Source: Opitutales bacterium (GTDB taxonomy: Bacteria; Verrucomicrobiota; Verrucomicrobiia; Opitutales; Seribacteraceae). From it: a stretch of DNA of 34,894 bases. Position numbers and translations under genes: made by a program. Below the pieces are notes generated by a model. That model made no database searches. It saw only the letters and a program-made list of their open reading frames with translations, and was not told the origin of the DNA. Within the stretch, counting starts at the first letter, position 1; the number at the start of each line of letters is the position of its first letter. The stretch lies in contig JAQXCL010000028.1 of assembly GCA_029251885.1 (NCBI GenBank), positions 1-34,894 of the forward strand, written 5' to 3'. This document shows, piece by piece, positions 2,014 through 21,023 of this stretch.

Positions 2014-2094
2014 GGGTGACGCTTGCAGATTCAGGAATCATCTGAGTGTTGGATAAATTAACCCAGTATTAACCTTTGCGAAATTAAGTTATTT

Positions 2095-3384
2095 TTAATT
2101 TTTTTGTGGATTCCACCAGGCATCAAGCTTGGCTGTTAAATTTTGCACCACATCTGGATTTTGATCAGCTAAGTTGGTGCTTTCCAATGGATCTTTCGTG
2201 AGATCAAAGAGTTCCACTTTTTCCTGAGGTACTCCAATTTGCCAGCCCATGGATTTGAGCTTTGGGTGAGGCTCTGTCCACCTAGTCAGTTTCCAGTTAT
2301 GCTGTACAACTGATCGTGCACGGAGGGCGGTTTCCGGGCGGTCAACATCGAGCATATCATGAGTGAAGATTTCGAGAAAGATGGACTTTCTTTTTTTGAC
2401 TGCGGTGGGATTTAAAAGATCAATCCCGCTCATCCTCTCATCCGGTTCTATGCCGCAGGCATTTAGAATAGTGGGCACAAGGTCGAGGTTGCTGGCAAGG
2501 TCGGTGGAATTGATTTGAGGAGAGATTTTAACGGGCCATCGAAACATGATCGGCGTACGAACACCTTGCTCATAGGGGGATGCTTTAACGGAACCTCTCT
2601 TCCCGTCGAGCCTTCCCCAGCCATTGTCGCATGCATAAACCACCAGGGTATTATCGGACAATTTCAGATTATCCAGATCATCGAGCAATTTTCTGCAGCT
2701 TTGATCAAACCATTCGCACATCGCATAATATTTTGCCTGTCCGCCTGCTCCGAGATCACGGTATTTTTTCTCCAAATCGGCAGGAGGATTATGCGGAGTG
2801 TGGGGGAGAAATGGGGCTTACCAAATAAAGAACGGTTTTTCCTTCTCCTTGGACTCACGGAGGAAGTCGGAAATAGGCTTCATGGTATCCCTGCCAATAC
2901 TTAGGGAGTAGGGGGATCCATGTCTTTGGGTAGCACCCATATCGTGGGTGAAACCGGAATATTTAGGATGTGCATGCCAGTACTTTCCCGTGTGTAAGCT
3001 GATGTATCCTTGCTTGGCAAGTAGCTTGGGCAACTGGGGCGAGTTTTTAAATTTATCAATCCATGGCTGCCGGCTGATTCCCTTGAGTGGGTCATTCCCA
3101 GTGGTTCTGTGCTCATGGGGGTAGAGACCGGTGAGCATAGTGGTGAGGGAGGAACTGCATAGGGCAGTGGTTACATATCCACGGTCATATCGTAAGCTCT
3201 GAGATGCGAGGCGGTCGAGACTCGGAGTTTCGATTATTTCGTGCCCCATAAATCCATAATCGCCGAACCCTTGGTCATCGCTTAGAATCATTACCACATT
3301 GGGCAGTGGTTCAGGCTTCGCCCACGAAAAAATACTGCCGCAAAGTGAAAGGAAAATGAAGGTTACTAATTTAAGTTTCATCAA
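2095..3384 (-). pseudogene. Sulfatase interrupted by an in-frame TAA stop
   Basis: Two open segments in the same frame, 3384 to 2818 and 2817 to 2095, together encode one sulfatase-like protein of about 429 residues. A single TAA at complement 2818-2820 (codon 189) separates them. The reading continues without frame change: FFIW, stop, APFLPHTPHNPP. The sister protein at 14212-15567 reads FFLWYGVFLPHTPHNPP, so the stop sits where a Tyr codon (TAT/TAC) is expected. Present are a signal peptide, a SDDQG metal motif, HTGKYWH, and in the second half CDNGW and RTPIMFRWP. The active-site segment is C76-S-S-S-L, lacking the Pro and Arg of the CxPxR formylglycine motif. The gene is last in the minus-strand run, 31 bases after a DUF1501 gene. 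Sequencing error is possible. Confidence 0.85.
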
Positions 3385-3415
3385 TTATGATTTTAGTGGA
3401 TCCTGATTTCTGGAT

Positions 3416-4846
3416 CTAAACCAACAACTTTTTTACTACATGTCCATGTACATCGGTGAGGCGGTATCTTCTACCCTGGAAGAAATATACCAGGCGCTCA
3501 TGATTAATTCCGAGCTGATGGAGCAGGGTAGCGTGAAGATCATGTACCGATACCTCATCCTTGGTGACGCGGTAGGAAAAATCATCAGTCTCCCCAAACT
3601 GTAGACCTGGCTTAAAACCACCACCTGCCAAAAGTTTGGTAAAACAACCGGGATGATGATCGCGTCCATAGGCTTCCATCACTTTGCCGTTTTGACTGTA
3701 GGTACTTCTGCCAAACTCGCCCCCCCATACGACAATTGTATCATCCAGCAGTCCGCGTTGTTTAAGATCGGTGATTAAGCCGGCAGTAGCCTGGTCGACT
3801 TCCCGGCATCGTTTGGGCAGATGGGCGGGCAGATTGAAATGGTGATCCCATCCGGAGTGGTATAGCTGAATGAAGCGGACATCTCGTTCAGCAAGGCGAC
3901 GGGCCATCAAGCAATTGAATGCAAATGTTCCCGGTTTGCGTGCATCTTCTCCATAAAGTTTGTAAGTTGATTCAGGCTCATTGGCAAAATCGGCAAGTTC
4001 AGGGATGGAGGTTTGCATACGGAAGGCCATTTCATACTGGGCGATTCTGGTATCGACCGACGGATTACCTGAGCGGTTGGCTTCCTCTCTGTTCAGGGCA
4101 TTGATGGCATCGAGGATGGATCGCTTCTCCTTAAGGGTTTTGCCAGAAGGGTCGTTTAAGTAGAGCACTGGTTCTGTCCCTGAACGCAAGCGCACTCCCT
4201 GATGTTTGCCCGGAAGGAATCCATTTCCCCAGAGACGGGAGTTGAGTGGTTGCATATTGGGCAGGTCCCCACTCGATACCAGTGCGACAAATTCTGGCAG
4301 GTTCTGATTCATTGTGCCCAGTCCATAACTTAACCATGAGCCCATACTGGGCCGGCCGGGTAAGTTGTGCCCTGTTTGCATGAAGGTCATGGCCGGGTCA
4401 TGGTTGATGGGGATCGTGGTCATCGATCGGATGGTGCAGAGATCATCTGCAATTCCTGCCATGTGGGGTAAGAGTTCGCTGGTCCATGAGCCTGTCTGAC
4501 CATGCTGGGCAAAGGAGTACTTACTATTAATAACAGGTAAAATCTTTCGATTGTTATTAAACCCTGTGAGCCGGCTCTGTTGTTCAACATGTTTGAAAAT
4601 ATCACTGCCGTGGTGCTGAGCGAGTGCTGGTTTATGATCAAAAAGATCGACCTGAGATGGGCCACCAGACTGGAAGAGATAGATAATGCGCTTGGCCCGA
4701 GCAGGGTGATGGGAGAATTTTCCAGCAGTTGTAGAGCCATCGGCAAGCAAACTGCCCAGAGCCATGTACCCGAGCCCTGCACCCACGGTGCGGAGGGCCT
4801 GACGACGGTTCATCTTCAACCAGAGGTTTTCAATTTCTTGATTCAT
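3416..4846 (-). CDS. DUF1501 family exported protein (alkaline phosphatase-like fold)
   Basis: The 476-residue protein has a twin-arginine style leader (MNRRQALRTVGAGLG, residues 12-26) followed by a hydrophobic stretch, so Tat export of a folded protein is likely. A start at Met12 is also possible. Family hallmarks are RIIYLFQSGGPSQVDLFDHKP near residue 53, HSGWDHHF, VVWGGEFGRS, GRDHHPG and VHDLHATLLHQLGI. These His/Asp/Glu clusters are the likely metal ligands of the alkaline phosphatase/sulfatase-type fold. No catalytic activity is established for the family. It begins 8 bases after the stop of the DUF1549/1553 gene at 4855-7614, repeating the pair seen at 7611-12415 and 21060-24817. The annotation as DUF1501 is firm; the substrate is unknown. 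Confidence 0.92.
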   Translation of the reverse strand: MNQEIENLWLKMNRRQALRTVGAGLGYMALGSLLADGSTTAGKFSHHPARAKRIIYLFQSGGPSQVDLFDHKPALAQHHGSDIFKHVEQQSRLTGFNNNRKILPVINSKYSFAQHGQTGSWTSELLPHMAGIADDLCTIRSMTTIPINHDPAMTFMQTGHNLPGRPSMGSWLSYGLGTMNQNLPEFVALVSSGDLPNMQPLNSRLWGNGFLPGKHQGVRLRSGTEPVLYLNDPSGKTLKEKRSILDAINALNREEANRSGNPSVDTRIAQYEMAFRMQTSIPELADFANEPESTYKLYGEDARKPGTFAFNCLMARRLAERDVRFIQLYHSGWDHHFNLPAHLPKRCREVDQATAGLITDLKQRGLLDDTIVVWGGEFGRSTYSQNGKVMEAYGRDHHPGCFTKLLAGGGFKPGLQFGETDDFSYRVTKDEVSVHDLHATLLHQLGINHERLVYFFQGRRYRLTDVHGHVVKKLLV

Positions 4847-4854
4847 AAGATAAT

Positions 4855-7614
4855 CTATTTGCGGGTTATGGTCTCGCTGAGATTGAAAAGTGTGTGGCAG
4901 ACATCAGTAAGCCCAGCCAGTTGAGCAGGTTTCATTGTCGTGCTGGATGCCGTACTTTCTCCAACGGATAGAGTGCGATTGGCAGATTTTGAATCTTTTC
5001 GGTAATGAGATATGCGCTGATTTTGCAGATCTGAAAGAAGCTGGAACTCTTTGTGGGAAGGCTTTCTTGACAGCACTCTTTCAAAAGCCGATTTAATCGG
5101 ATCTGTTTCCCCGTGAACGAGAACGGCGAGCGTGCGGGCCGCTTCCCAATAGGTGAGGTCATGCAGAGTAACCAGAGCTTGAAGCGGAGTATTGGTGGAT
5201 GCCCGTTCAACGGTGCATACATCCCGGCTTGGGGCATCAAAAGCAGACATCGATGGATGAAGAACGGCACGACGCCAGTAGGTGTAGAGGCTTTTGCGGT
5301 ACAGATTATCCCCTTTGCTTTGCACATAAAATTCGCGGTGGGAAGGCGGGGCGTTCAGATCAGCCCAGACTCCATCCGGTTGGTAGGGCATCACACTTGG
5401 ACCTCCCACTTTCTTGGTGAGTAACCCACTGGCGGCTAAGGCCTGGTCCCTGATCATTTCTGCCGGCAAGCGGAAGGTGGATGCACGCGAAAGGGAACGG
5501 TTTTCAGGATCCTCCAGTTCGGGGCGATAGGTTGAGGATTGTCCATAGGTCGCCGAAAGCACGATCTTTTTGATGGTTTGATGAAGATCCCACTTGTGGT
5601 TGATAAAATCTTTGGCCAACCAATCGAGAAGTTCCGGATGGCTTGGTAGTTCGCCCTGCAAACCGAAATTATCTGGGGTTTTTACCAATCCATAACCAAA
5701 GAACTGTTGCCATAACCGGTTGACCGAGACACGGGCAAACAGTGGGTTCTCCTTGGATACCAGCCAGTCGACCAGTCCTAACCGGTCCAATCTGTATCCG
5801 TCAAAGGATGGAAGTACGGCCGGGGTTCTTGGAGTTACCCGCTTGCCGGGCTGGTCATAGAGTCCCTCCATGAGAATACGGGTCTCTCTTTCTTCCTCTT
5901 TCATGATCATGGTAAGGGCATTGGGTGGAGTGATGCCCCAGATGGACGATGCAAAGCGGAAGCGTCCTAAAACATGTTTATCATGGGAAGAAAATTCCAT
6001 GCTCGCTTCCAACCTTGGTCCCTTGGGAATATTTAATTCGGTCTCAAAATCGAAGCGGGCAATCTGGGTTTTATTGAGGCCTCCCTGCACTGCCCATCCA
6101 GTACTGGGGTCCCCGTCAATGCTTTGCTTCACATGAAACCCAAACTGATCAAAGGTGGCGGTAGCTTCCTTGATTTTCAAAGGCGTCCTGGAATTTTCTG
6201 AGACCAGGAAGATTTCAAGTTCATTGAGTACGAAATTCCCATTGGGAGCCCGGCCAACTGGTCCGTGCTTGGAGCCGTTAATGGGAAGAACTTCAAGCCT
6301 TAGGCTTCGAATCTTTTGTGACGAAAGCTCAAAGTGAACCACATAAGAATCAGATGAGGGTACCTCTCCTGTCGCTTTAATGGAGTGATTCTTTTGAATT
6401 TCAAGTGTTTGTTTTTCAGCAACTGCCTTGGTTGGTTTTAATTGCTTCCAGTTTGCATGGATGGGTTTTTTCTTGCCCGAATAAACTTCAAGATAAGGAG
6501 CTGAAGCTTTTGTTGCCCGGGATTGTTCACCAGGGTTTCCTTTCTCGGCACTGGTGTTAAAGAAAGCAAACATGGAATAATAATCTTCCATGCTAAGCGG
6601 ATCATACTTGTGATCGTGGCAACGGGTGCATTCCAGGGTTAACCCGAGAAACAAGGTTCCAAAGGTGGTGGTTTTATCATTTGCATAGATAACCCGGTAC
6701 TCCTCGTCTATGGTTCCTCCCTCGAAGGTATATCCATGGTTTCGGTTAAAACCAGTTGCAATTAATTGATCCTGAGTAGGGTTGGGCAATAAATCCCCTG
6801 CCACCTGTTCACGAACAAATTGGTCATAGGGCATATTTTGAGAATAAGCCTGAATCACCCAGTCCCGCCAGGGCCACATGGTACGGGTGGTATCAAACTG
6901 AAAGCCATTGCTATCTGCATAACGGGCACCATCCAACCAGAGCAGTGCCATTCGTTCGGCATAATCTATGGTGGATAAGAGGTAATCAACTTCCGCTTCC
7001 CTGGCTTTGGGGGAGGGGTCCTGAAGAAATTTTTGGAGTCTATCTAATGAAGGGGGCAGTCCGGTGAGATCAAAGGATACCCGTCGTAACCAGGTTTCTG
7101 GATCCGCTGGCTTGGACGGTGAAATCGATTTTTGGATCAGGGAAGAAAGAACGAACTCGTCGATCTCATTTTGAGGCCAGGTGGAATCATTATTGGGAAC
7201 CTTGGTTTCCTCAATGGGTTCAAAGGACCAGTGATTTTCCCATTTTGCACCTTGTTCAATCCATTGTTTAATAATGGATTTTTCCTGTTTGGTTAGGGAA
7301 AGGTGAGAGTCGGGTGGGGGCATAATTTCGTCTTCCTCTTTCGATTCGATCCGCCAGAAGATTTCACTCTCCTCAGGATCACCTGGGGTGATTGCACGAT
7401 ATCCCCCAAGGTCGGCAAAAGCACCCTCCTCCGTGTCCAATCTCAGATCGGCGGCCCGGTCTTCTGGATCTGGTCCGTGGCAGGCATAACATTTATCCGA
7501 CAAAATAGGTCGGACATGATCATTGAAGCTAACTGAAAGGGGGTGCGATTCCTTGCCTGATGCCCCGACGACCGAAAGTCCTCCAAGAAGAGGCAACAAC
7601 CACTGCAGTCTCAT
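4855..7614 (-). CDS. DUF1549/DUF1553 protein with N-terminal planctomycete-type cytochrome c domain
   Basis: The 919-residue protein has a signal peptide (1 to about 20). A PSCyt1 domain follows with C42-Y-A-C-H46, then GPDPEDRAADLRLDTE and a MPPP motif. DUF1549 covers about 150-360 and includes LRRVSFDLTGLPP, AERMALLWLDGARYADSNG and a second heme-type motif CTRCHDHKYDP near residue 328. Residues about 400-590 form a galactose-binding-like insert (RLEVLPI ... SIDGDPSTGW ... GRFRFASS) also found in the 9020-12415 paralogue. DUF1553 covers about 600-870 (VNRLWQQFFGYGLV, HPELLDWLA, NTPLQALVTLHD). The ATG overlaps the stop of the preceding DUF1501 gene as ATGA. Probably a periplasmic multiheme-type redox protein working with the DUF1501 product; that role is inferred. 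Confidence 0.93.
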   Translation of the reverse strand: MRLQWLLPLLGGLSVVGASGKESHPLSVSFNDHVRPILSDKCYACHGPDPEDRAADLRLDTEEGAFADLGGYRAITPGDPEESEIFWRIESKEEDEIMPPPDSHLSLTKQEKSIIKQWIEQGAKWENHWSFEPIEETKVPNNDSTWPQNEIDEFVLSSLIQKSISPSKPADPETWLRRVSFDLTGLPPSLDRLQKFLQDPSPKAREAEVDYLLSTIDYAERMALLWLDGARYADSNGFQFDTTRTMWPWRDWVIQAYSQNMPYDQFVREQVAGDLLPNPTQDQLIATGFNRNHGYTFEGGTIDEEYRVIYANDKTTTFGTLFLGLTLECTRCHDHKYDPLSMEDYYSMFAFFNTSAEKGNPGEQSRATKASAPYLEVYSGKKKPIHANWKQLKPTKAVAEKQTLEIQKNHSIKATGEVPSSDSYVVHFELSSQKIRSLRLEVLPINGSKHGPVGRAPNGNFVLNELEIFLVSENSRTPLKIKEATATFDQFGFHVKQSIDGDPSTGWAVQGGLNKTQIARFDFETELNIPKGPRLEASMEFSSHDKHVLGRFRFASSIWGITPPNALTMIMKEEERETRILMEGLYDQPGKRVTPRTPAVLPSFDGYRLDRLGLVDWLVSKENPLFARVSVNRLWQQFFGYGLVKTPDNFGLQGELPSHPELLDWLAKDFINHKWDLHQTIKKIVLSATYGQSSTYRPELEDPENRSLSRASTFRLPAEMIRDQALAASGLLTKKVGGPSVMPYQPDGVWADLNAPPSHREFYVQSKGDNLYRKSLYTYWRRAVLHPSMSAFDAPSRDVCTVERASTNTPLQALVTLHDLTYWEAARTLAVLVHGETDPIKSAFERVLSRKPSHKEFQLLSDLQNQRISHYRKDSKSANRTLSVGESTASSTTMKPAQLAGLTDVCHTLFNLSETITRK

Positions 7615-9023
7615 GCGATTAATTTTTTGACGGCGTGGTGTTGTTCTACTCCTGTAAGTCGAAAATCAAGCCCCTGAAAGCGAAAGGACAATTGGGTGTG
7701 ATCAATTCCTAGGAGTTGGAGAATGGTGGCTTGCAGATCGTGAACATGGACTGGGTCCTCGGTCACATGAAAGCCAAGTTCATCGGTCTGTCCGAGAGTG
7801 ATGCCAGGCTTTACTCCACCGCCAGCCATCCACATGGTAAAAGCTTGTGGGTGATGATCACGTCCGCCGCTGCGGTTGAGGGCAGCACTAGCCTCGACCA
7901 TTGGAGTACGTCCAAATTCTCCTCCCCAGATGACCAGAGTGTCTTCGAGCATGCCACGTTGCTTGAGGTCCTGCACTAAGGCGGCACTTGCCTGGTCAAT
8001 AGTTTTGGCGTTATTGGTAACATTTCCTTTCACATTGGAGTGTGCATCCCAACCCGCATGATATAGTTGAACAAATCGGGAGCCTCTTTCCACCAAACGA
8101 CGGGCAAGCAGGCAGTTACTTGCAAAATTTGACCGTCCCTCTTTTACACCATAAAGGTCGAGTGTCTTTTTACTTTCCTTGGAGAAATCCATCAGTTCAG
8201 GAGCCCGTGCCTGCATGCGATACGCCATTTCATAGGCTTCAATTCTAGTATTGATTTCGGGATCCCCCATTCTCCTGAAATTACTGTTGTTAAGCTTGTT
8301 CAGTAGATCAAGGGTCTGCCGTTGTGCTGTGCGATCAATTCCTTTGGGGTTTGTGACATGTAAAATGGGATCTGAACCTTCACGGAAGGGGACGCCCTGG
8401 TGCTCGGAAGGTAGAAATCCCGATCCCCACATGGCGGTTCCGCCACTTAAGTTTCCACCACTTTGCATGACCACAAAGCCGGGCAAATCATTGGCTTCAC
8501 TACCAATACCGTAACTGAGCCACGAGCCCATACTTGCACGCCCTGGTATTCCATTACCAGTGGTCATAAAAAGCTGGGCAGGAGCGTGATTAAAGTGTTC
8601 GGTGTGCATTGACTTGATGAAAGTCAGGTCGTCTGCAACTTTGCTTAAATAGGGAAGTCGATCGGAGATTTCGGCCCCAGATTGGCCATGCTTTGCGAAT
8701 GGAAAGCAGGGGCCTAATACTGCTGCATCAGGTTGGATAAAAGCATAGCGTTGTCCTTTAATGACTGAAGGTGGGATGGGCTGCCCCTCGATTTCTTTTA
8801 ATTTTGGCTTGTTGTCAAAAAGTTCGAGCTGACTGGGAGCTCCGGCCATAAATAGGTAAATGATCCGCTTGGCTTTTACCGGGAACCGCATGAAGCTTGG
8901 CTTGCCAGTTGCCCCAAAGGCGTCATTAGCAAGTAGGGAAGCCAAGGCAATCTTGCCAACGCCTAATCCACAATCTTGAAAGAAATGACGACGGGTACGG
9001 TGAAGAAGAGGATGTGTGTTCAT
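7611..9023 (-). CDS. DUF1501 family exported protein (alkaline phosphatase-like fold), copy 2
   Basis: The 470-residue protein starts with a Tat-like leader containing RTRRHFFQDCGLGVG. It then shows KRIIYLFMAGAPSQLELFDNKP, FVQLYHAGWDAHSN, LVIWGGEFGRTPM, GRDHHPQAF and VHDLQATILQLLGID. The middle GIPGRASMGSWLSYG is also shared with the copies at 3416 and 21060. It overlaps the upstream DUF1549/1553 gene by 4 bases (9020-9023) and the downstream one by 4 bases (7611-7614), so translation of all three is probably coupled. The equivalent of WDHH in copy 1 is WDAH here, while the downstream GRDHH is kept, so the likely metal site appears intact. Function beyond the fold family is not known. Confidence 0.92.
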   Translation of the reverse strand: MNTHPLLHRTRRHFFQDCGLGVGKIALASLLANDAFGATGKPSFMRFPVKAKRIIYLFMAGAPSQLELFDNKPKLKEIEGQPIPPSVIKGQRYAFIQPDAAVLGPCFPFAKHGQSGAEISDRLPYLSKVADDLTFIKSMHTEHFNHAPAQLFMTTGNGIPGRASMGSWLSYGIGSEANDLPGFVVMQSGGNLSGGTAMWGSGFLPSEHQGVPFREGSDPILHVTNPKGIDRTAQRQTLDLLNKLNNSNFRRMGDPEINTRIEAYEMAYRMQARAPELMDFSKESKKTLDLYGVKEGRSNFASNCLLARRLVERGSRFVQLYHAGWDAHSNVKGNVTNNAKTIDQASAALVQDLKQRGMLEDTLVIWGGEFGRTPMVEASAALNRSGGRDHHPQAFTMWMAGGGVKPGITLGQTDELGFHVTEDPVHVHDLQATILQLLGIDHTQLSFRFQGLDFRLTGVEQHHAVKKLIA

Positions 9024-12000
9024 GGTTTTGTTATGGCTTCATCGAGGTTCATAATAGCCCGGGCGAGGAGAACATTACCGGCCCACTCAGCATTGGCTTG
9101 TTTGTCATTGGCAACTTCCTGAGGATTGAGTTCGCCCTGCTTAAAACGGTTTAGTTGCTGGTCTAGGTAAGCCTGAAGGTTTTTCTGTTCTTCGGCTTTG
9201 GGAGGACGGGTAAGAAAGCGACGAAATAGGGTGCGAACCGGGTCTTTCTTTTTAATATGTACTTCTTTTCCTGCTGCTCTTGCCAACTCGAGGAACATTT
9301 CATCATTCAGTAGTGTAAGAGCCTGCAACGGGGTGTTGCTCCGATCCCGTCTGGCCAAACAGTTTTCCCCCGATGTGCCATCAAATGTCATATGTCCAGC
9401 AAAGGGAGCCGTGCGTTTGATAAAAGTGTAGAGTGATCGGCGATATCGATCTTCGCCTTGGGAGACATTCCATGCCTTACTGCCAAAGGCATGAGAAAGT
9501 ACACTCTTAGGTTGTGGAGGGTAGACGCCCGGACCAAACATTTTTTTGGATAGTTTTCCACTTGCTAAGAGCATATGGTCTCGAATCAATTCCCCGGTTA
9601 GTCTAAAGCGTGGTCCTCGGGCTAATAGGCGATTTTGCGGATCCATTTCGAATAACTTTTCTGATGTTTCTGAACTTTGCCGGTAAGTGGAGCTGTTCAC
9701 CAATAAACGGTGCAATTTTTTTAAAGACATTCCGTTTTTACGAAATTCAACGGCTAACCAATCAAGCAATTCAGGGTGGTCAGGAGATGCAGACTGGGTA
9801 CCAAAATCACCGCTAGTTCGAATCAAACCGGCGCCAAATAGCGATCGCCAAGCACGGTTAACCACCACGCGGTCACCGATTGGATTTTCCTCACTGACTA
9901 ACCAACGGGCAAATTCTAGTCGGTTTGTTGGTTCTTGATCAATGGAAAGTCCAAATACTTCAGGGATTCCCGCAGGCACTTTATGTTTTGGATTGGTGTA
10001 TTCTCCACGGTGTCGAAGGTAAGTTGCCCTAGGGTTATCGGCGGGGCGCTCCTGCATAACTAATGATTTCGCACTTTTAGGCATTTTTCTTTTCAACCCG
10101 GCCAGTTCTGTTTTACCTGAGGAGGGTACTGAAATACTCTTCCATGGTGCGTCCCCGGGTTTTCCGATAACGGTGGACTTTATTCCATTACGTAACCCTT
10201 TTGTTTTCCATTGTTCATTGGACGGTTTTTCTTCGCTGAAAAGCCAACTTTCATCACTTGGAATATTTTGTTTTTTTCCTTTTGGCATAACCAAACTTAA
10301 TTGTGCAATAAGAGCACCGGGGCCACCGTTGTTCTTGGCTTTGACTGCAATTGTATTGGTTCCCTTCGCGAGATTGGTCTTGAGATTTAGGGAGACTGGT
10401 TCGTTCCACAAAGTATTACTTGCCACTTTTATGCCATTGATAAAAAACTCGGATTCATCGTCGCAGGTAAAGGTGAGTTTTCCTGATTTGGGTGCTTCAG
10501 TAAGTTCAAAACTTTTTGTAAAATAAAGGGACTTAGCGGTTTGGGTATTTTCCCCGTCCCAAATCCAACGCGATGCAGCTCCAAATAATTGATTGTTTTC
10601 CTTCTGGTTAAGAAATATTTTCTCGAGAAATATTTGTTTAAGAAAATCATTTTCTTGCTGGGTCTTGTTGTCCTTGGCTATCAAGTCTTCGACCTTTGAC
10701 CCTAAGTGCATGGGTTTGATTGGCTTGGTGGATGATGTTGCGGATATACGGAAGCGACCGAATGCGGCTACGAAATGTCTTTCAAAAAGCATTGATAACG
10801 AAAAGGACTCCCTGGCAGGAATTGGCTTGGACAGCGGAAGTATTAAATGGTGTTCCGTTCCGATGGCTCCCGAACCCCATCCCGAAGATCCATCGCCATC
10901 TAGGATATTTTCTACACCATGGCCACCATGACTAGATGGCTTGGTGAATTCTACATCTGATCCATTTAGCGATGCGGTAACTTCGCTGAGAAAAAAAGTA
11001 CCACTGCGTCCCTCATAGTATGAACGACCCGGCCCTTTCCCCGGTAAGCGATCGTCCGGTAAGGCTTCAATACGAAGTGCAGTTATTGAGGAGTTCGAAG
11101 TATAATTTAAGTCGTAGACATCCCGTTTGGTAAAATCTCCAGATGAGAAAATGGAACCATCCTTCATAAGTTCAAGTTTGGGGAGGTTGGTATTCCATCC
11201 AGTCGGTTCCAGGATTTTCCAGTTTGTAGTACTTTTTTTCGTACGGGTTAGCCAGGAATTGAAGGAATTATCAAAGTCAGAATGTCGGGTAATGAGTTCT
11301 TTGACTTTCTGTGAAACCTGACTTTCGATTTCTAGAGTAAGTTTCTTTTGTTGTTCGGTGATGAGGAAGAGATCAGGTTCTTCAACATTATCGAGTAGAG
11401 CCATTATGCCAAAGTATTCATCATGGGTTATTGGATCGTATTTGTGGGTATGGCACTGAGCACATCCCGTAGTCAATCCCATCCAAACGGTACCAGTAGT
11501 GGCCACTCGATCCACGGCCGCATAAAAGCGGAATTCGAGAGGATCAATGCCTCCTTCCTCATTGAGTTGGGTGTTGCGATGAAAGCCGGTTGCGATTTTT
11601 TGATCTAATGTCGAGTTCGGTAGCATGTCACCTGCAAGCTGTTCGATGGTAAATTGATCGTAGGGCATATCATTGTTGAGGGCTCGAATCACCCAGTCTC
11701 TGTAGTGCCAAATTTCACGAGGCCTATCTTTCTCATACCCATTAGTATCGGCATAGCGTGCAAGATCGAGCCACTCGCGGGCCCATTTTTCTCCGTAGTG
11801 AGAAGATGTCATCAATTGATCGACCAATCTTTCGTATGCATCGACGCGGTTGTCTGTTACAAAGCGGTCCACTTGTTCGGGGGTAGGGGGTAGTCCAGTC
11901 AGGTCGAGGTAGATCCGTCTTGCTAGGGTGTAGCGGTCTGCCTCGGGAGAAGGTTCAAGCTCATGTCTCTCCAGGCTTTTAAGAATAAAGGCATCGATAG

Positions 12001-12581: not shown

Positions 12582-14159
12582 TTAATTTTTCAGTAATTCT
12601 TTGAATTGAATCACTTTTTCATTCCAGAGATTTTCGAGCTTACTTTTTAATTTTGGCATCTTCTTGGATAGGTCATTTGATTCGGCTCGATCTTTACTAA
12701 GGTCGTACAAGGCCCATGGGTCATTCTTGGCGGCAACAAGCTTGAGATTTCCTTGCCTGATCGCACGGTTGCCCGCGTGCATCCACCAAATAGATTCTCT
12801 CGGGATGGCGCGATCCTCCAAGAAGGATGAAACCAAACTTTTACCAGGAGCCTTGGGAATAGGTGCCCCTTTCCATGATTTTGGTTTTTTAATTCCGGCT
12901 AATTCCAGAATGGTAGGTACGATGTCGATCACATGCCCAGGTGAATGTCTTAATTCACCTTTGTTTTTTATACCATTTGGCCAATGAGCGATGAGAGGCG
13001 TGCTGATTCCTCCTTCGTGTACCCAGGTTTTATGCCTGCGGAAAGGAGTGTTGGATGCACTGGAAAACCCGGGGCCCAAGCAGAGGTAAGATTTAGCACT
13101 GCCCATTGGAGCTTCTGTGTCATGCCCGCCGCTTCGAATCATGATCTCTGCACTGGCTCCATTGTCGGAGGCAAAAAGGATGAGGGTGTTTTTGTAGGCT
13201 CCCATCTTTTTGAGTTGTTCGATAACGCGGCCCACTTCCTGATCGATCCGATCGATCATGGCTGCATGAATGGCCATTTTGGTAGCCTGGAATTGTTTCT
13301 GGGTGTCAGAAAGGCTTGCCCATGGCAGAGGACGGTTTATTTCACTGGGGCCTAAGTTTTCAATCGCTTGAGGAAAGGCATATGGTGGACCGACTTTAGG
13401 TTCGAGGGCGGATAGCGAAGTTTTGTGAAGACCGATTTTCTTTTGTTTGGCGAAGCGTTCTTGCCTGATTTTGTCCCAGCCAAATAAGTACCTGTCTTTA
13501 TACTTGGCGATATCTTCGGCTTTAGCATGAAGGGGGAAATGGGGGGCGATAAAGGCAAGGTAATGGAAGAAGGGTTGATTATCGTAGTTTTGCTGATGAT
13601 CCTTCAGGCACTCGATCGCATGGCTGGCGGTGGCAGTGGTTGAATAGTAACCCTTTTCTACCTTGGCAGGCTTAAAGGGTTTGTCATTGATGAGGTTTCC
13701 CCGTGACGAAAAGAAATTATTTTGTTCCGCTACATACCAGGAACGATCGAAACCACCCGCTAATACTTTGCCGTCAATGTGCCACTTTCCACTGTGATAA
13801 TTACGGTAATCTGAAGATTTTAGAAGCTCAGGAAGAAGGGGTGCCCAGGTTGGGCGTATGCCATGTCCGCCGCCTCTAATGCCAGGCATGGCATCGCGAT
13901 TAATTTGCTGGGCATAGTATCCGCTAAGGAGTGAGGAGCGGGTGGGCCAGCATCTGCCAGTGTTGTAAAACTGGGTATAACGCAATCCGTTGGCAGCAAG
14001 GTTGTCCAGGTTAGGCGTTTCAATCTCACTGCCATAACAGCCCAGGTCGGAATATCCCATGTCGTCGACCAGAATCATCAAGATGTTTGGTTTTTCTTTT
14101 CCGAAAACATTAAGAGAAAAAAAGAACAAGATGGTTTTTAAAATGGTTATTTTTCTCAT
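12582..14159 (-). CDS. Exported sulfatase with canonical CxPxR motif (arylsulfatase-like)
   Basis: The 525-residue type I sulfatase has a signal peptide (1-20, MRKITILKTILFFFSLNVFG). The N-terminal metal motif is VDDMGYSDLGCYG. The formylglycine site is C70-W-P-T-R74, which fits CxPxR, so Cys70 is the expected formylglycine residue. Downstream are YHSGKWHIDG, the metal-site block FASDNGAS, and THDTEAP-like loop residues around HDTEAPMGSAKS. The overall layout, with DRIDQEVGRVIEQLKKMGAY and HEGGISTPLIAHWP, resembles large bacterial arylsulfatases that act on sulfated sugars. Maturation would need a formylglycine-generating enzyme, not encoded here. It lies 52 bases after the stop of the sulfatase at 14212 and probably shares its transcript; a hairpin follows. 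Confidence 0.93.
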   Translation of the reverse strand: MRKITILKTILFFFSLNVFGKEKPNILMILVDDMGYSDLGCYGSEIETPNLDNLAANGLRYTQFYNTGRCWPTRSSLLSGYYAQQINRDAMPGIRGGGHGIRPTWAPLLPELLKSSDYRNYHSGKWHIDGKVLAGGFDRSWYVAEQNNFFSSRGNLINDKPFKPAKVEKGYYSTTATASHAIECLKDHQQNYDNQPFFHYLAFIAPHFPLHAKAEDIAKYKDRYLFGWDKIRQERFAKQKKIGLHKTSLSALEPKVGPPYAFPQAIENLGPSEINRPLPWASLSDTQKQFQATKMAIHAAMIDRIDQEVGRVIEQLKKMGAYKNTLILFASDNGASAEIMIRSGGHDTEAPMGSAKSYLCLGPGFSSASNTPFRRHKTWVHEGGISTPLIAHWPNGIKNKGELRHSPGHVIDIVPTILELAGIKKPKSWKGAPIPKAPGKSLVSSFLEDRAIPRESIWWMHAGNRAIRQGNLKLVAAKNDPWALYDLSKDRAESNDLSKKMPKLKSKLENLWNEKVIQFKELLKN

Positions 14160-14211: not shown

Positions 14212-15567
14212 TTAATCCCAATTTTTTACTACCTTACGCTCCTTTACCGGCCACCAATTATCGATTTTTGCGACGAGTTTTGCCACTACATCCGGGTTTT
14301 GTTCGGCCAGGTTATTTTCTTCTTTTGGATCTTTCAGTAGGTTGAAAAGTTGAGGGCGTTTTTCTTCGCGTGGATGGGTAGTTTTATAGCGGTTAACCTC
14401 CCCGTCATAGGTTAGCAAAAGTTTCCAGTTTCCTTCAATGGTCCATCGGAAAAGGAGAGAGTCTTCAGGGTTTTCGATATCTGCAATATCATGTGCAAAG
14501 CTTTCTCCAAAGATTCCCTTTCTTTTGATGGGTTTTTCTGTTTTTAAATTTTCGAGAAGATTTAATCCAGGCAGAGCTTCTGGTGTTCGTGCCCTGGTCG
14601 CAGCTAGAACCGTGGGGAATAAATCGATGGATGAGACCACATCCTTACGCGTACCATTTTTCAGTTTTCCGTTTGGCCAGGAGAACATGATGGGCGTGCG
14701 AATACCTCCCTCGTATGGAGTTTGCTTGGAACGGGGTGCATAGGCAGATTTGTCGGTTCGGTTGATCCAACCATTGTCAGTCACATAGACAATGAGAGTG
14801 TCATCTCGCAGGTTTCTTTCTTCCAGAATGTCAATGAGTTGGCCACAAGTTTCATCAAACCAAGTACAGTTCGCATAGTACTTGGCAATAGGAAGGGGTA
14901 GGCCCATGTCGCGATAAGGCTTGAGCAGGCGTTCGGGTGGATTGTGTGGCGTGTGAGGAAGAAAGACTCCGTACCATAAGAAGAAGGGCTTTTTCTCCTC
15001 CATTGTATGGTCCACAAATTCTTCGATTGCTTGCAGTCCTTCCCGACCGATTTTTAGACCGTCGTCTCCATGGCGTCCACCTGATTTGGGAAAGCCACGG
15101 GTCATTCCATGTGTGAATCCACCATGTTTAAAATTCCCCTCCCACCATTTTCCGCTTTGATGGCTGAGGTAGCCCTTTTCACCAAGCAACTTGGGTAGGG
15201 TGTCAAACTTATCGAGGTAGGAAATAAGCTTGGCTCTCTTTTGGTTGTAGTTTTTACCGTCCTTGGGAGAATAGTTTTTCGGGGATGGATCATTTCCGGT
15301 TACACCGTGCTTGTGAGCGTACTGCCCATTGACCAGGGTGACGAGGGAAGGTCGGCAGAGAGCAGTGGGAACATACCCCCGTTCGAATAGTACGCTTTCG
15401 TTAGCGAGTTTATCCAAGTGAGGAGTTTTAATTTGCGGGTGTCCCATGAAACCGTAATCAGTCCAAGCCTGATCATCCGAAAGAATGTAAAGGACATTGG
15501 GAGATTTTTGAGCAGATAACCAAAGGGTTGAACCAAATATGAAGAGTAATTTAATGAGTTTTTTCAT
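14212..15567 (-). CDS. Sulfatase-family protein with non-canonical C-R-P-S-L active-site segment
   Basis: The 451-residue protein has a signal peptide (1-20). The SDDQAWTDYGFMGHPQ metal block is at about 30-45 and QSGKWWEGNFKHGGFTHG follows. VTDNGW and GIRTPIMFSWPNG lie in the second half, and a typical sulfatase C-terminus (LLKDPKEENNLAEQNPD) closes it. The expected formylglycine segment reads C71-R-P-S-L75: Cys and Pro are present but Leu replaces the usual Arg. It is the closest relative in the window of the interrupted gene at 2095-3384 (shared TALC, TGNDP, GFTHGM/GFTHDM, FLPHTPHNPP). It follows the cytochrome-tail remnant and the sigma/FecR pair. Sulfatase-fold hydrolase is certain; sulfate ester as substrate is less so because of the altered motif. 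Confidence 0.9.
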   Translation of the reverse strand: MKKLIKLLFIFGSTLWLSAQKSPNVLYILSDDQAWTDYGFMGHPQIKTPHLDKLANESVLFERGYVPTALCRPSLVTLVNGQYAHKHGVTGNDPSPKNYSPKDGKNYNQKRAKLISYLDKFDTLPKLLGEKGYLSHQSGKWWEGNFKHGGFTHGMTRGFPKSGGRHGDDGLKIGREGLQAIEEFVDHTMEEKKPFFLWYGVFLPHTPHNPPERLLKPYRDMGLPLPIAKYYANCTWFDETCGQLIDILEERNLRDDTLIVYVTDNGWINRTDKSAYAPRSKQTPYEGGIRTPIMFSWPNGKLKNGTRKDVVSSIDLFPTVLAATRARTPEALPGLNLLENLKTEKPIKRKGIFGESFAHDIADIENPEDSLLFRWTIEGNWKLLLTYDGEVNRYKTTHPREEKRPQLFNLLKDPKEENNLAEQNPDVVAKLVAKIDNWWPVKERKVVKNWD

Positions 15568-19595: not shown

Positions 19596-21023
19596 CTAAC
19601 GAGTTTTATCCAATGCCCGGTGCTTAAGAAAACGGTTATGCAGATTGGCAAGAACCTCTGGATACTTTGAGGAAAGCTCATTTCTTTCAAATGGGTCTTT
19701 GTTTAGGTTGTACAAAGCCCAGTCAGATGGATTTCTGGGGATTTTTTTAGAGTAGCAGACGATCTTCCAACTGTCATGTCGGACGGCCCAGCGGCGGTTG
19801 CTCTGTACCCAGTAAAAGTCGCGCTCAAGAGCTTTAGCCCCGCTCAGGATGCTGGGGGATTGATCAAAACCATCCCAAGATAGCGAACCGGTTTTTTGGA
19901 ATCCAACAACCTGAGCAACCGTAGGGAACCAGTCCACGATGTGCATGGGGTAATCGATTTGTTGAGGTTTTATTTTTTTGGGCCATACCGCAAAGCCTGG
20001 TACCTTGATGCCTCCTTCATAGACATCATGCTTTTGGCCTCTCATCGGAATGGGTTGATTGAAATCGGTAAGTTTGAGGTCGTCTGGGTAAGCGTTGCCC
20101 GGCCAATTGACCTGCGGGCCGTTGTCGGATGAAAAAAGAAGGAGGGTGTTTTCGTATAAATTGTGATCTTTAAGGGTGTCGATGACCCGACCGATGGCAT
20201 GGTCCAGATGATGAAGGGCCGCCAGAAATAATCTTTTCTCTGGATCCTCTTCCTGCTGAATTTTCCCTAGGGAGTCATTAAACCAGGGAATATCATTCTC
20301 ATTTTGCCATCGATTTGGGTTTCGCCGGTCCAATCGTGTCGGTTGATTATGAAATTTCCCCCGTTCATCCAAAGGGGTATGCACGGCGGTGTAAGGCAAA
20401 TAGAGAAAGAAGGGGTTGTCTCTTTTTTGACGAATGAAACCAATGGCATCATCGGTGATTAAATCGGTTGTATGAACCCCGTTCTCACTGCCTTCAATTA
20501 ATTCATGATTGCGATGCCAGGTCTGAAAGAGAGGGCCCTTGCGGTACCCGTGGTTGTAATTCCCCACCGCTCCTGAAAGACAACCATAGCTTTGATCAAA
20601 TCCAAAATAGTTGGGCCCGTGATCGGGGGAACTACCCAGGTGCCATTTCCCGGATAGGCAGGTATCGTATCCTTGTGATTTGAGCATCGAAGCAATGGTC
20701 GGGGTGCCTTTAGGGAAGGCTGGCTTGGTGCTGGCAGATGTGGCATGCGGGCCGAACCGGCTTGGGTACCTGCCGGTCATCAGGGCCACCCGAGTTGGTG
20801 TGCACTGAGCCATGACATAGTGGTTGGTGAACAGAGCTCCGCTTCGGGCAAGCTTATCCATGTTTGGAGTATAGACCTTCGGGTTGTTGTAGCCTATGTC
20901 AGCCCATCCCTGGTCATCGGTCAGGATAATGATTACATTTGGGCTTTGGCCGTAGGTAATACTCACGGGTATAAACACCAGATTAAGCAGACTGAATAGA
21001 ACCGATTGTATATTTATGACCAT
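19596..21023 (-). CDS. Exported sulfatase with canonical CxPxR motif (arylsulfatase A/B-like)
   Basis: The 475-residue protein has a signal peptide ending near SITYG (residues 21-25). The metal motif is LTDDQGWADIGYNN. The formylglycine segment is C74-T-P-T-R78 (AQCTPTRVALMTGRYPSRFG). LSGKWHLGSSPDHGPNYFGF and LLFSSDNGPQVNWPG follow, with GQKHDVYEGGIKVPGFAVWP. The layout is that of arylsulfatase A/B and N-acetylgalactosamine sulfatase relatives. It begins 36 bases after the stop of the DUF1501 gene at 21060 and is probably in the same transcript. Cys74 must be converted to formylglycine for activity; the maturing enzyme is not in this window. The following 127 bases to the next sulfatase contain no gene. 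Confidence 0.93.
   Translation of the reverse strand: MVINIQSVLFSLLNLVFIPVSITYGQSPNVIIILTDDQGWADIGYNNPKVYTPNMDKLARSGALFTNHYVMAQCTPTRVALMTGRYPSRFGPHATSASTKPAFPKGTPTIASMLKSQGYDTCLSGKWHLGSSPDHGPNYFGFDQSYGCLSGAVGNYNHGYRKGPLFQTWHRNHELIEGSENGVHTTDLITDDAIGFIRQKRDNPFFLYLPYTAVHTPLDERGKFHNQPTRLDRRNPNRWQNENDIPWFNDSLGKIQQEEDPEKRLFLAALHHLDHAIGRVIDTLKDHNLYENTLLLFSSDNGPQVNWPGNAYPDDLKLTDFNQPIPMRGQKHDVYEGGIKVPGFAVWPKKIKPQQIDYPMHIVDWFPTVAQVVGFQKTGSLSWDGFDQSPSILSGAKALERDFYWVQSNRRWAVRHDSWKIVCYSKKIPRNPSDWALYNLNKDPFERNELSSKYPEVLANLHNRFLKHRALDKTR

Follow-up and report, generated by a model that had tools for sequence, protein, structure and literature searches.

In formylglycine-dependent sulfatases, Arg55 stabilises the formylglycine, and nine sequences from Lentisphaerae and Planctomycetes that have Ile or Leu at this position may be inactive (SulfAtlas paper, PMC5066984). 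The gene described here is a sulfatase-fold gene on which a search of the literature returned nothing. It is carried on the minus strand of a 34,894 nt stretch of DNA (the window), which is one entire contig (C97) of a metagenome-assembled draft genome of a marine Opitutales bacterium (GCA_029251885.1, denoted G000; 2.18 Mb in 167 contigs, 94% complete). A sequence-only reading of the window had proposed that a single TAA splits a sulfatase gene at this locus, and the stop codon, the open frame around it and the domain matches on either side all bear this out.

The frame comprises 428 codons (nt 2095–3381, minus strand), beginning with an ATG at nt 3381 and ending with a TAA at nt 2095–2097. 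The only internal stop is a TAA at nt 2818–2820 (minus strand, ...TTT ATT TGG TAA GCC CCA...), which is codon 188 and so lies well before the normal end. The frame is otherwise open, which at the GC content of the window would occur by chance with a probability of about 1e-10. The upstream half had been listed from nt 3384; the frame is correct, but the start is likely to be the ATG at 3381, as nt 3384 belongs to a TTG just before it. Both halves match PF00884 (Sulfatase) consecutively, at profile positions 1–168 and then 174–301, and while each is matched on its own, the read-through sequence gives an E-value of 6e-43. The N-terminal part (187 codons, nt 2821–3381) contains the first part of the sulfatase domain, including Asp35, Asp36, Cys75 and Lys133. 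The C-terminal part (240 codons, nt 2095–2817) would be untranslated unless translation reinitiates; it carries His194, Asp252, Asn253 and Lys266 and also matches SGSH_C. There is no second copy of the gene anywhere in the G000 assembly. Sequence comparison identifies the nearest paralogue as an intact gene in the same window (nt 14212–15567, minus strand), which is 47% identical, carries the motif CRPSL and, as previously claimed, has Tyr at the place of the stop.

The description of the split gene as an otherwise complete sulfatase holds for the domain, which is present over the whole length, but not for the maturation signature. In place of C-x-P-x-R there is Cys-Ser-Ser-Ser-Leu (codons 75–79, nt 3145–3159), and this departure is inherited, being common to the corresponding genes of Opitutia bacterium isolate ARS76 (G006, same genus as G000) and of a genome from another genus (G023). 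Among the 80 best-matching loci in the genome collection, Leu replaces the Arg in all 80, and the motifs are CRPSL (53), CRASL (9), CRPAL (6), CCPSL (5), CSPSL (4) and others, so that the homologues are mostly of a CxPSL type and the Ser for Pro of CSSSL is confined to the G000/G006/G023 clade. CSSSL was considered as a second lesion of the interrupted gene and ruled out on these grounds. Canonical motifs are found in other sulfatases of the window (CWPTR at nt 12582–14159, CTPTR at nt 19596–21023). The His that follows GK (GK-x-H motif) is absent from most homologues. The Leu-for-Arg subfamily (loci L070–L149) is spread over Verrucomicrobiota, Planctomycetota and Lentisphaerota, with a few members in Bacteroidota. 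Conservation of the other active-site residues, counted over 52 homologues, together with the low dN/dS given below, speaks for a function of some kind in the subfamily. A tentative suggestion is that this widespread group may use a chemistry other than that of the formylglycine sulfatases, and that the motif of the present clade may have changed further, to CSSSL, before the gene was repeatedly lost. The atypical Cys motif is the part of this analysis that a specialist might follow up.

Examination of the orthologue in related genomes had been proposed as a check on the stop. In G006 the gene is one uninterrupted frame with 94% protein identity and Tyr at codon 188, and the 80 best loci have Tyr (78/80) or His (2/80) at this codon. 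The TAA is private to G000 among all sequences searched, and is represented by one consensus sequence of one metagenome-assembled genome. This distribution bears directly on whether the stop could be read through, by programmed recoding or by a suppressor tRNA, to give a full-length enzyme. The frame past codon 188 is open and constrained, as such an explanation would have it, but the stop is not conserved, and TAA is the terminator of 8 of the 19 window genes. A suppressor anticodon is likewise absent from the 31 tRNA genes of G000: ARAGORN, run on 30 tRNA loci and one further tRNA, gave no anticodon for TAA or TGA, in a set that is incomplete, the draft lacking some of the tRNAs to be expected. 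Recoding had been thought unlikely from the window alone, and with these comparisons readthrough appears highly improbable. Open frames in both halves would also be kept if the gene had been truly split into two subunits made independently, the second from a restart downstream of the stop. The earliest restarts available are a TTG at codon 203 and an ATG at codon 221, which lie within conserved sequence and have no obvious Shine-Dalgarno sequence when inspected by eye; the cut falls within the catalytic domain, just ahead of the invariant His194, and none of the best 80 loci is split at codon 188. A functional split is scarcely credible, and is the least probable of the explanations considered.

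The age of the stop was assessed by comparing the interrupted gene with its G006 orthologue, which gave a dS of 0.174 and a dN of 0.025 (ratio 0.14), corresponding to 24 amino-acid and 45 silent changes on both branches together. Had the gene been fully neutral on the G000 branch, that branch would be expected to hold about 85 amino-acid changes (half dS × 982 sites, calculated by hand), so the gene was constrained for most of it. When polarised by eye against the homologues, the changes fall in similar number on the G000 and G006 sides. The gene had been described as undamaged apart from the stop. This is true of the frame, which shows no indel relative to the G006 orthologue over ~1.28 kb, but codon 230 (nt 2692–2694) is Arg, whereas Gly is found in 52/52 homologues and in the orthologue. 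Gly230Arg is a private, radical change in G000 and may be taken as weak evidence of decay; G006 has a radical change of its own, at Thr145. There is no clear excess of amino-acid changes in the interrupted gene and, Gly230Arg apart, no independent sign of decay. The intact orthologue, the unconserved stop, the lack of a suppressor among the tRNA genes found and the low dN/dS agree with the earlier proposal of recent inactivation.

Since such an excess is missing, an error in the consensus would look the same as a recent nonsense mutation. The cells would then keep an intact gene, and the TAA would have arisen in sequencing, or by the collapse of strains into one consensus during assembly. The change is a single base in a draft of many contigs, and the gene is otherwise constrained, as would be expected if it were intact. 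Against this, about 4% of the single-base changes possible in the gene create a stop, so that one erroneous stop implies many silent errors. The quality of G000 was calibrated against a same-genus genome (G007): over 201 genes and 70,053 residues (median identity 94%), no convincing nonsense mutation or frameshift was found on the G000 side. Two stops were flagged, one in a doubtful ORF of 101 residues and the other about 10 residues from a predicted start. The single frameshift flagged in G000 (C97:356–996) was assigned instead to G007, as the window ORF (nt 511–1107) is full length and matches an ORF of G006. When the comparison is reversed, many apparent frameshifts are seen in G007 relative to G000 (L234–L273), as in an indel-rich assembly. 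By this test, a limited sample that is silent on codon 188 itself, G000 is an accurate assembly. The comparison replaced a search for nonsense breaks in 418 kb by intrinsic coding potential, which was uninformative because both known broken genes score near zero.

The second of these broken genes is another G000 sulfatase, with a lone in-frame TGA where G002 and G004 have Trp (L014 1543–1545; G000:C45, ~35029). Internal stops are thus present in 2 of the 53 sulfatase matches of G000, compared with none of the 201 calibration genes; the hypergeometric p of ~0.04, calculated by hand, is only a hint of enrichment because neither sample was drawn at random.

G000 yielded a single tRNA-Leu(UAA) gene (L232 7913–8003, G000:C115), which has a one-base deletion in the anticodon loop, leaving six bases, and a second change, when compared with five relatives. 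Both changes could be errors and were considered as proof that the consensus contains them, but this argument is weakened because the gene sits at one end of a ~7.6-kb insertion relative to G006 and may be a decayed copy. The locus is possibly an integration site where a tRNA copy has decayed, or the changes may be errors. Taking these observations together, we regard a consensus or assembly error at codon 188 as unlikely, though considerably more probable than readthrough or a split gene.

The interrupted gene belongs to a cassette (nt 2067–7750, ends approximate) whose limits are set by a step in identity to G006 and G023. Its first member is an intact PSD1/PSCyt1/PSCyt2 (DUF1553) gene (nt 4855–7614, minus strand), followed by an intact DUF1501 gene (nt 3416–4846, minus strand), directly upstream of the sulfatase in the same run. 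Within the cassette, from nt 2067 to about 7750, identity is ~96% to G006 and, where aligned, ~93% to G023, compared with ~70% for the flanks. Beyond nt 7750, the identity of the window to both falls to ~70%, while G006 and G023 remain ~80–90% alike. Synonymous divergence from G006 shows the same step, from 0.10–0.17 within the cassette to ~1.8 in the next gene. This pattern is likely to reflect horizontal exchange or recombination. For the PSD1 gene, the dN/dS value relative to G023 was left out, as a 1-base indel makes it unusable; the G023 gene has a 1-base insertion relative to the window (L065, opposite window position ~7210), which is a frameshift or an error. Adjoining the cassette is a predicted protein of 292 residues (nt 1135–2013) with no Pfam match and no match in the G006 stretches examined.

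The state of the sulfatase gene could be judged in four genomes, the G001 copy having been left out as it runs off the end of its contig. It is intact in G006, interrupted by a nonsense codon in G000, and deleted for the most part in G023 and G004. In G023 a deletion junction cuts it off after about codon 119 (L065 ~9190–9210), while G004 keeps only its last ~150–168 bases, joined there to the opening ~130 codons of the PSD1 gene (L199 7600–7830). These two deletions of the same gene are independent events.

The best explanation, and in our judgement a probable one, is that the locus is a nonsense pseudogene of an ordinary kind and very recent date, lying in a dispensable cassette that is exchanged horizontally and repeatedly lost. 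On this view, codon 188 of an accessory sulfatase-fold gene became TAA through a recent nonsense mutation, which could be either fixed or a strain polymorphism. Translation would stop after 187 residues, with the active site only half made and the C-terminal part of the domain missing entirely. This product would be inactive as an enzyme, since it ends before the invariant His194, Asp252-Asn253 and Lys266. The stop would not be expected to affect other genes, because the sulfatase is the last gene of its run and the next downstream gene is on the opposite strand. From the mosaic of identities, the host cassette appears to have been exchanged horizontally; the two deletions show its repeated loss in the family. 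Since the genome has about fifty further sulfatase matches, the gene is probably dispensable.

Taken alone, one more recently broken accessory gene is of little weight. With its relatives, it shows the turnover of sulfatases in marine Verrucomicrobiota caught in progress, in a cassette that is shared between genera and is found with the gene intact, broken at a point, or, twice, mostly deleted. It also indicates that sulfatase counts from draft genomes need to be read with care.

Compared with the nonsense pseudogenes of other bacterial accessory families, the G000 gene is alike in its single stop, its intact orthologue and its repeated loss in other relatives, and shows no difference in kind; the G000 case is known from the consensus of one metagenome-assembled genome. 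The closest counterpart is the G006 orthologue, which is the same gene with the same upstream neighbours and the same CSSSL motif, and differs in being uninterrupted and in its codon 145, which is Asn instead of the Thr of most homologues. The formylglycine-dependent sulfatases (PF00884, SulfAtlas S1) resemble it in the full-length domain, the SGSH_C match and the retained Asp/Asp/Cys/Lys/His/Asp-Asn/Lys positions. The present gene and its homologues differ from them in having Leu for Arg (80/80), Ser for Pro within the clade and, in most cases, no His after GK.
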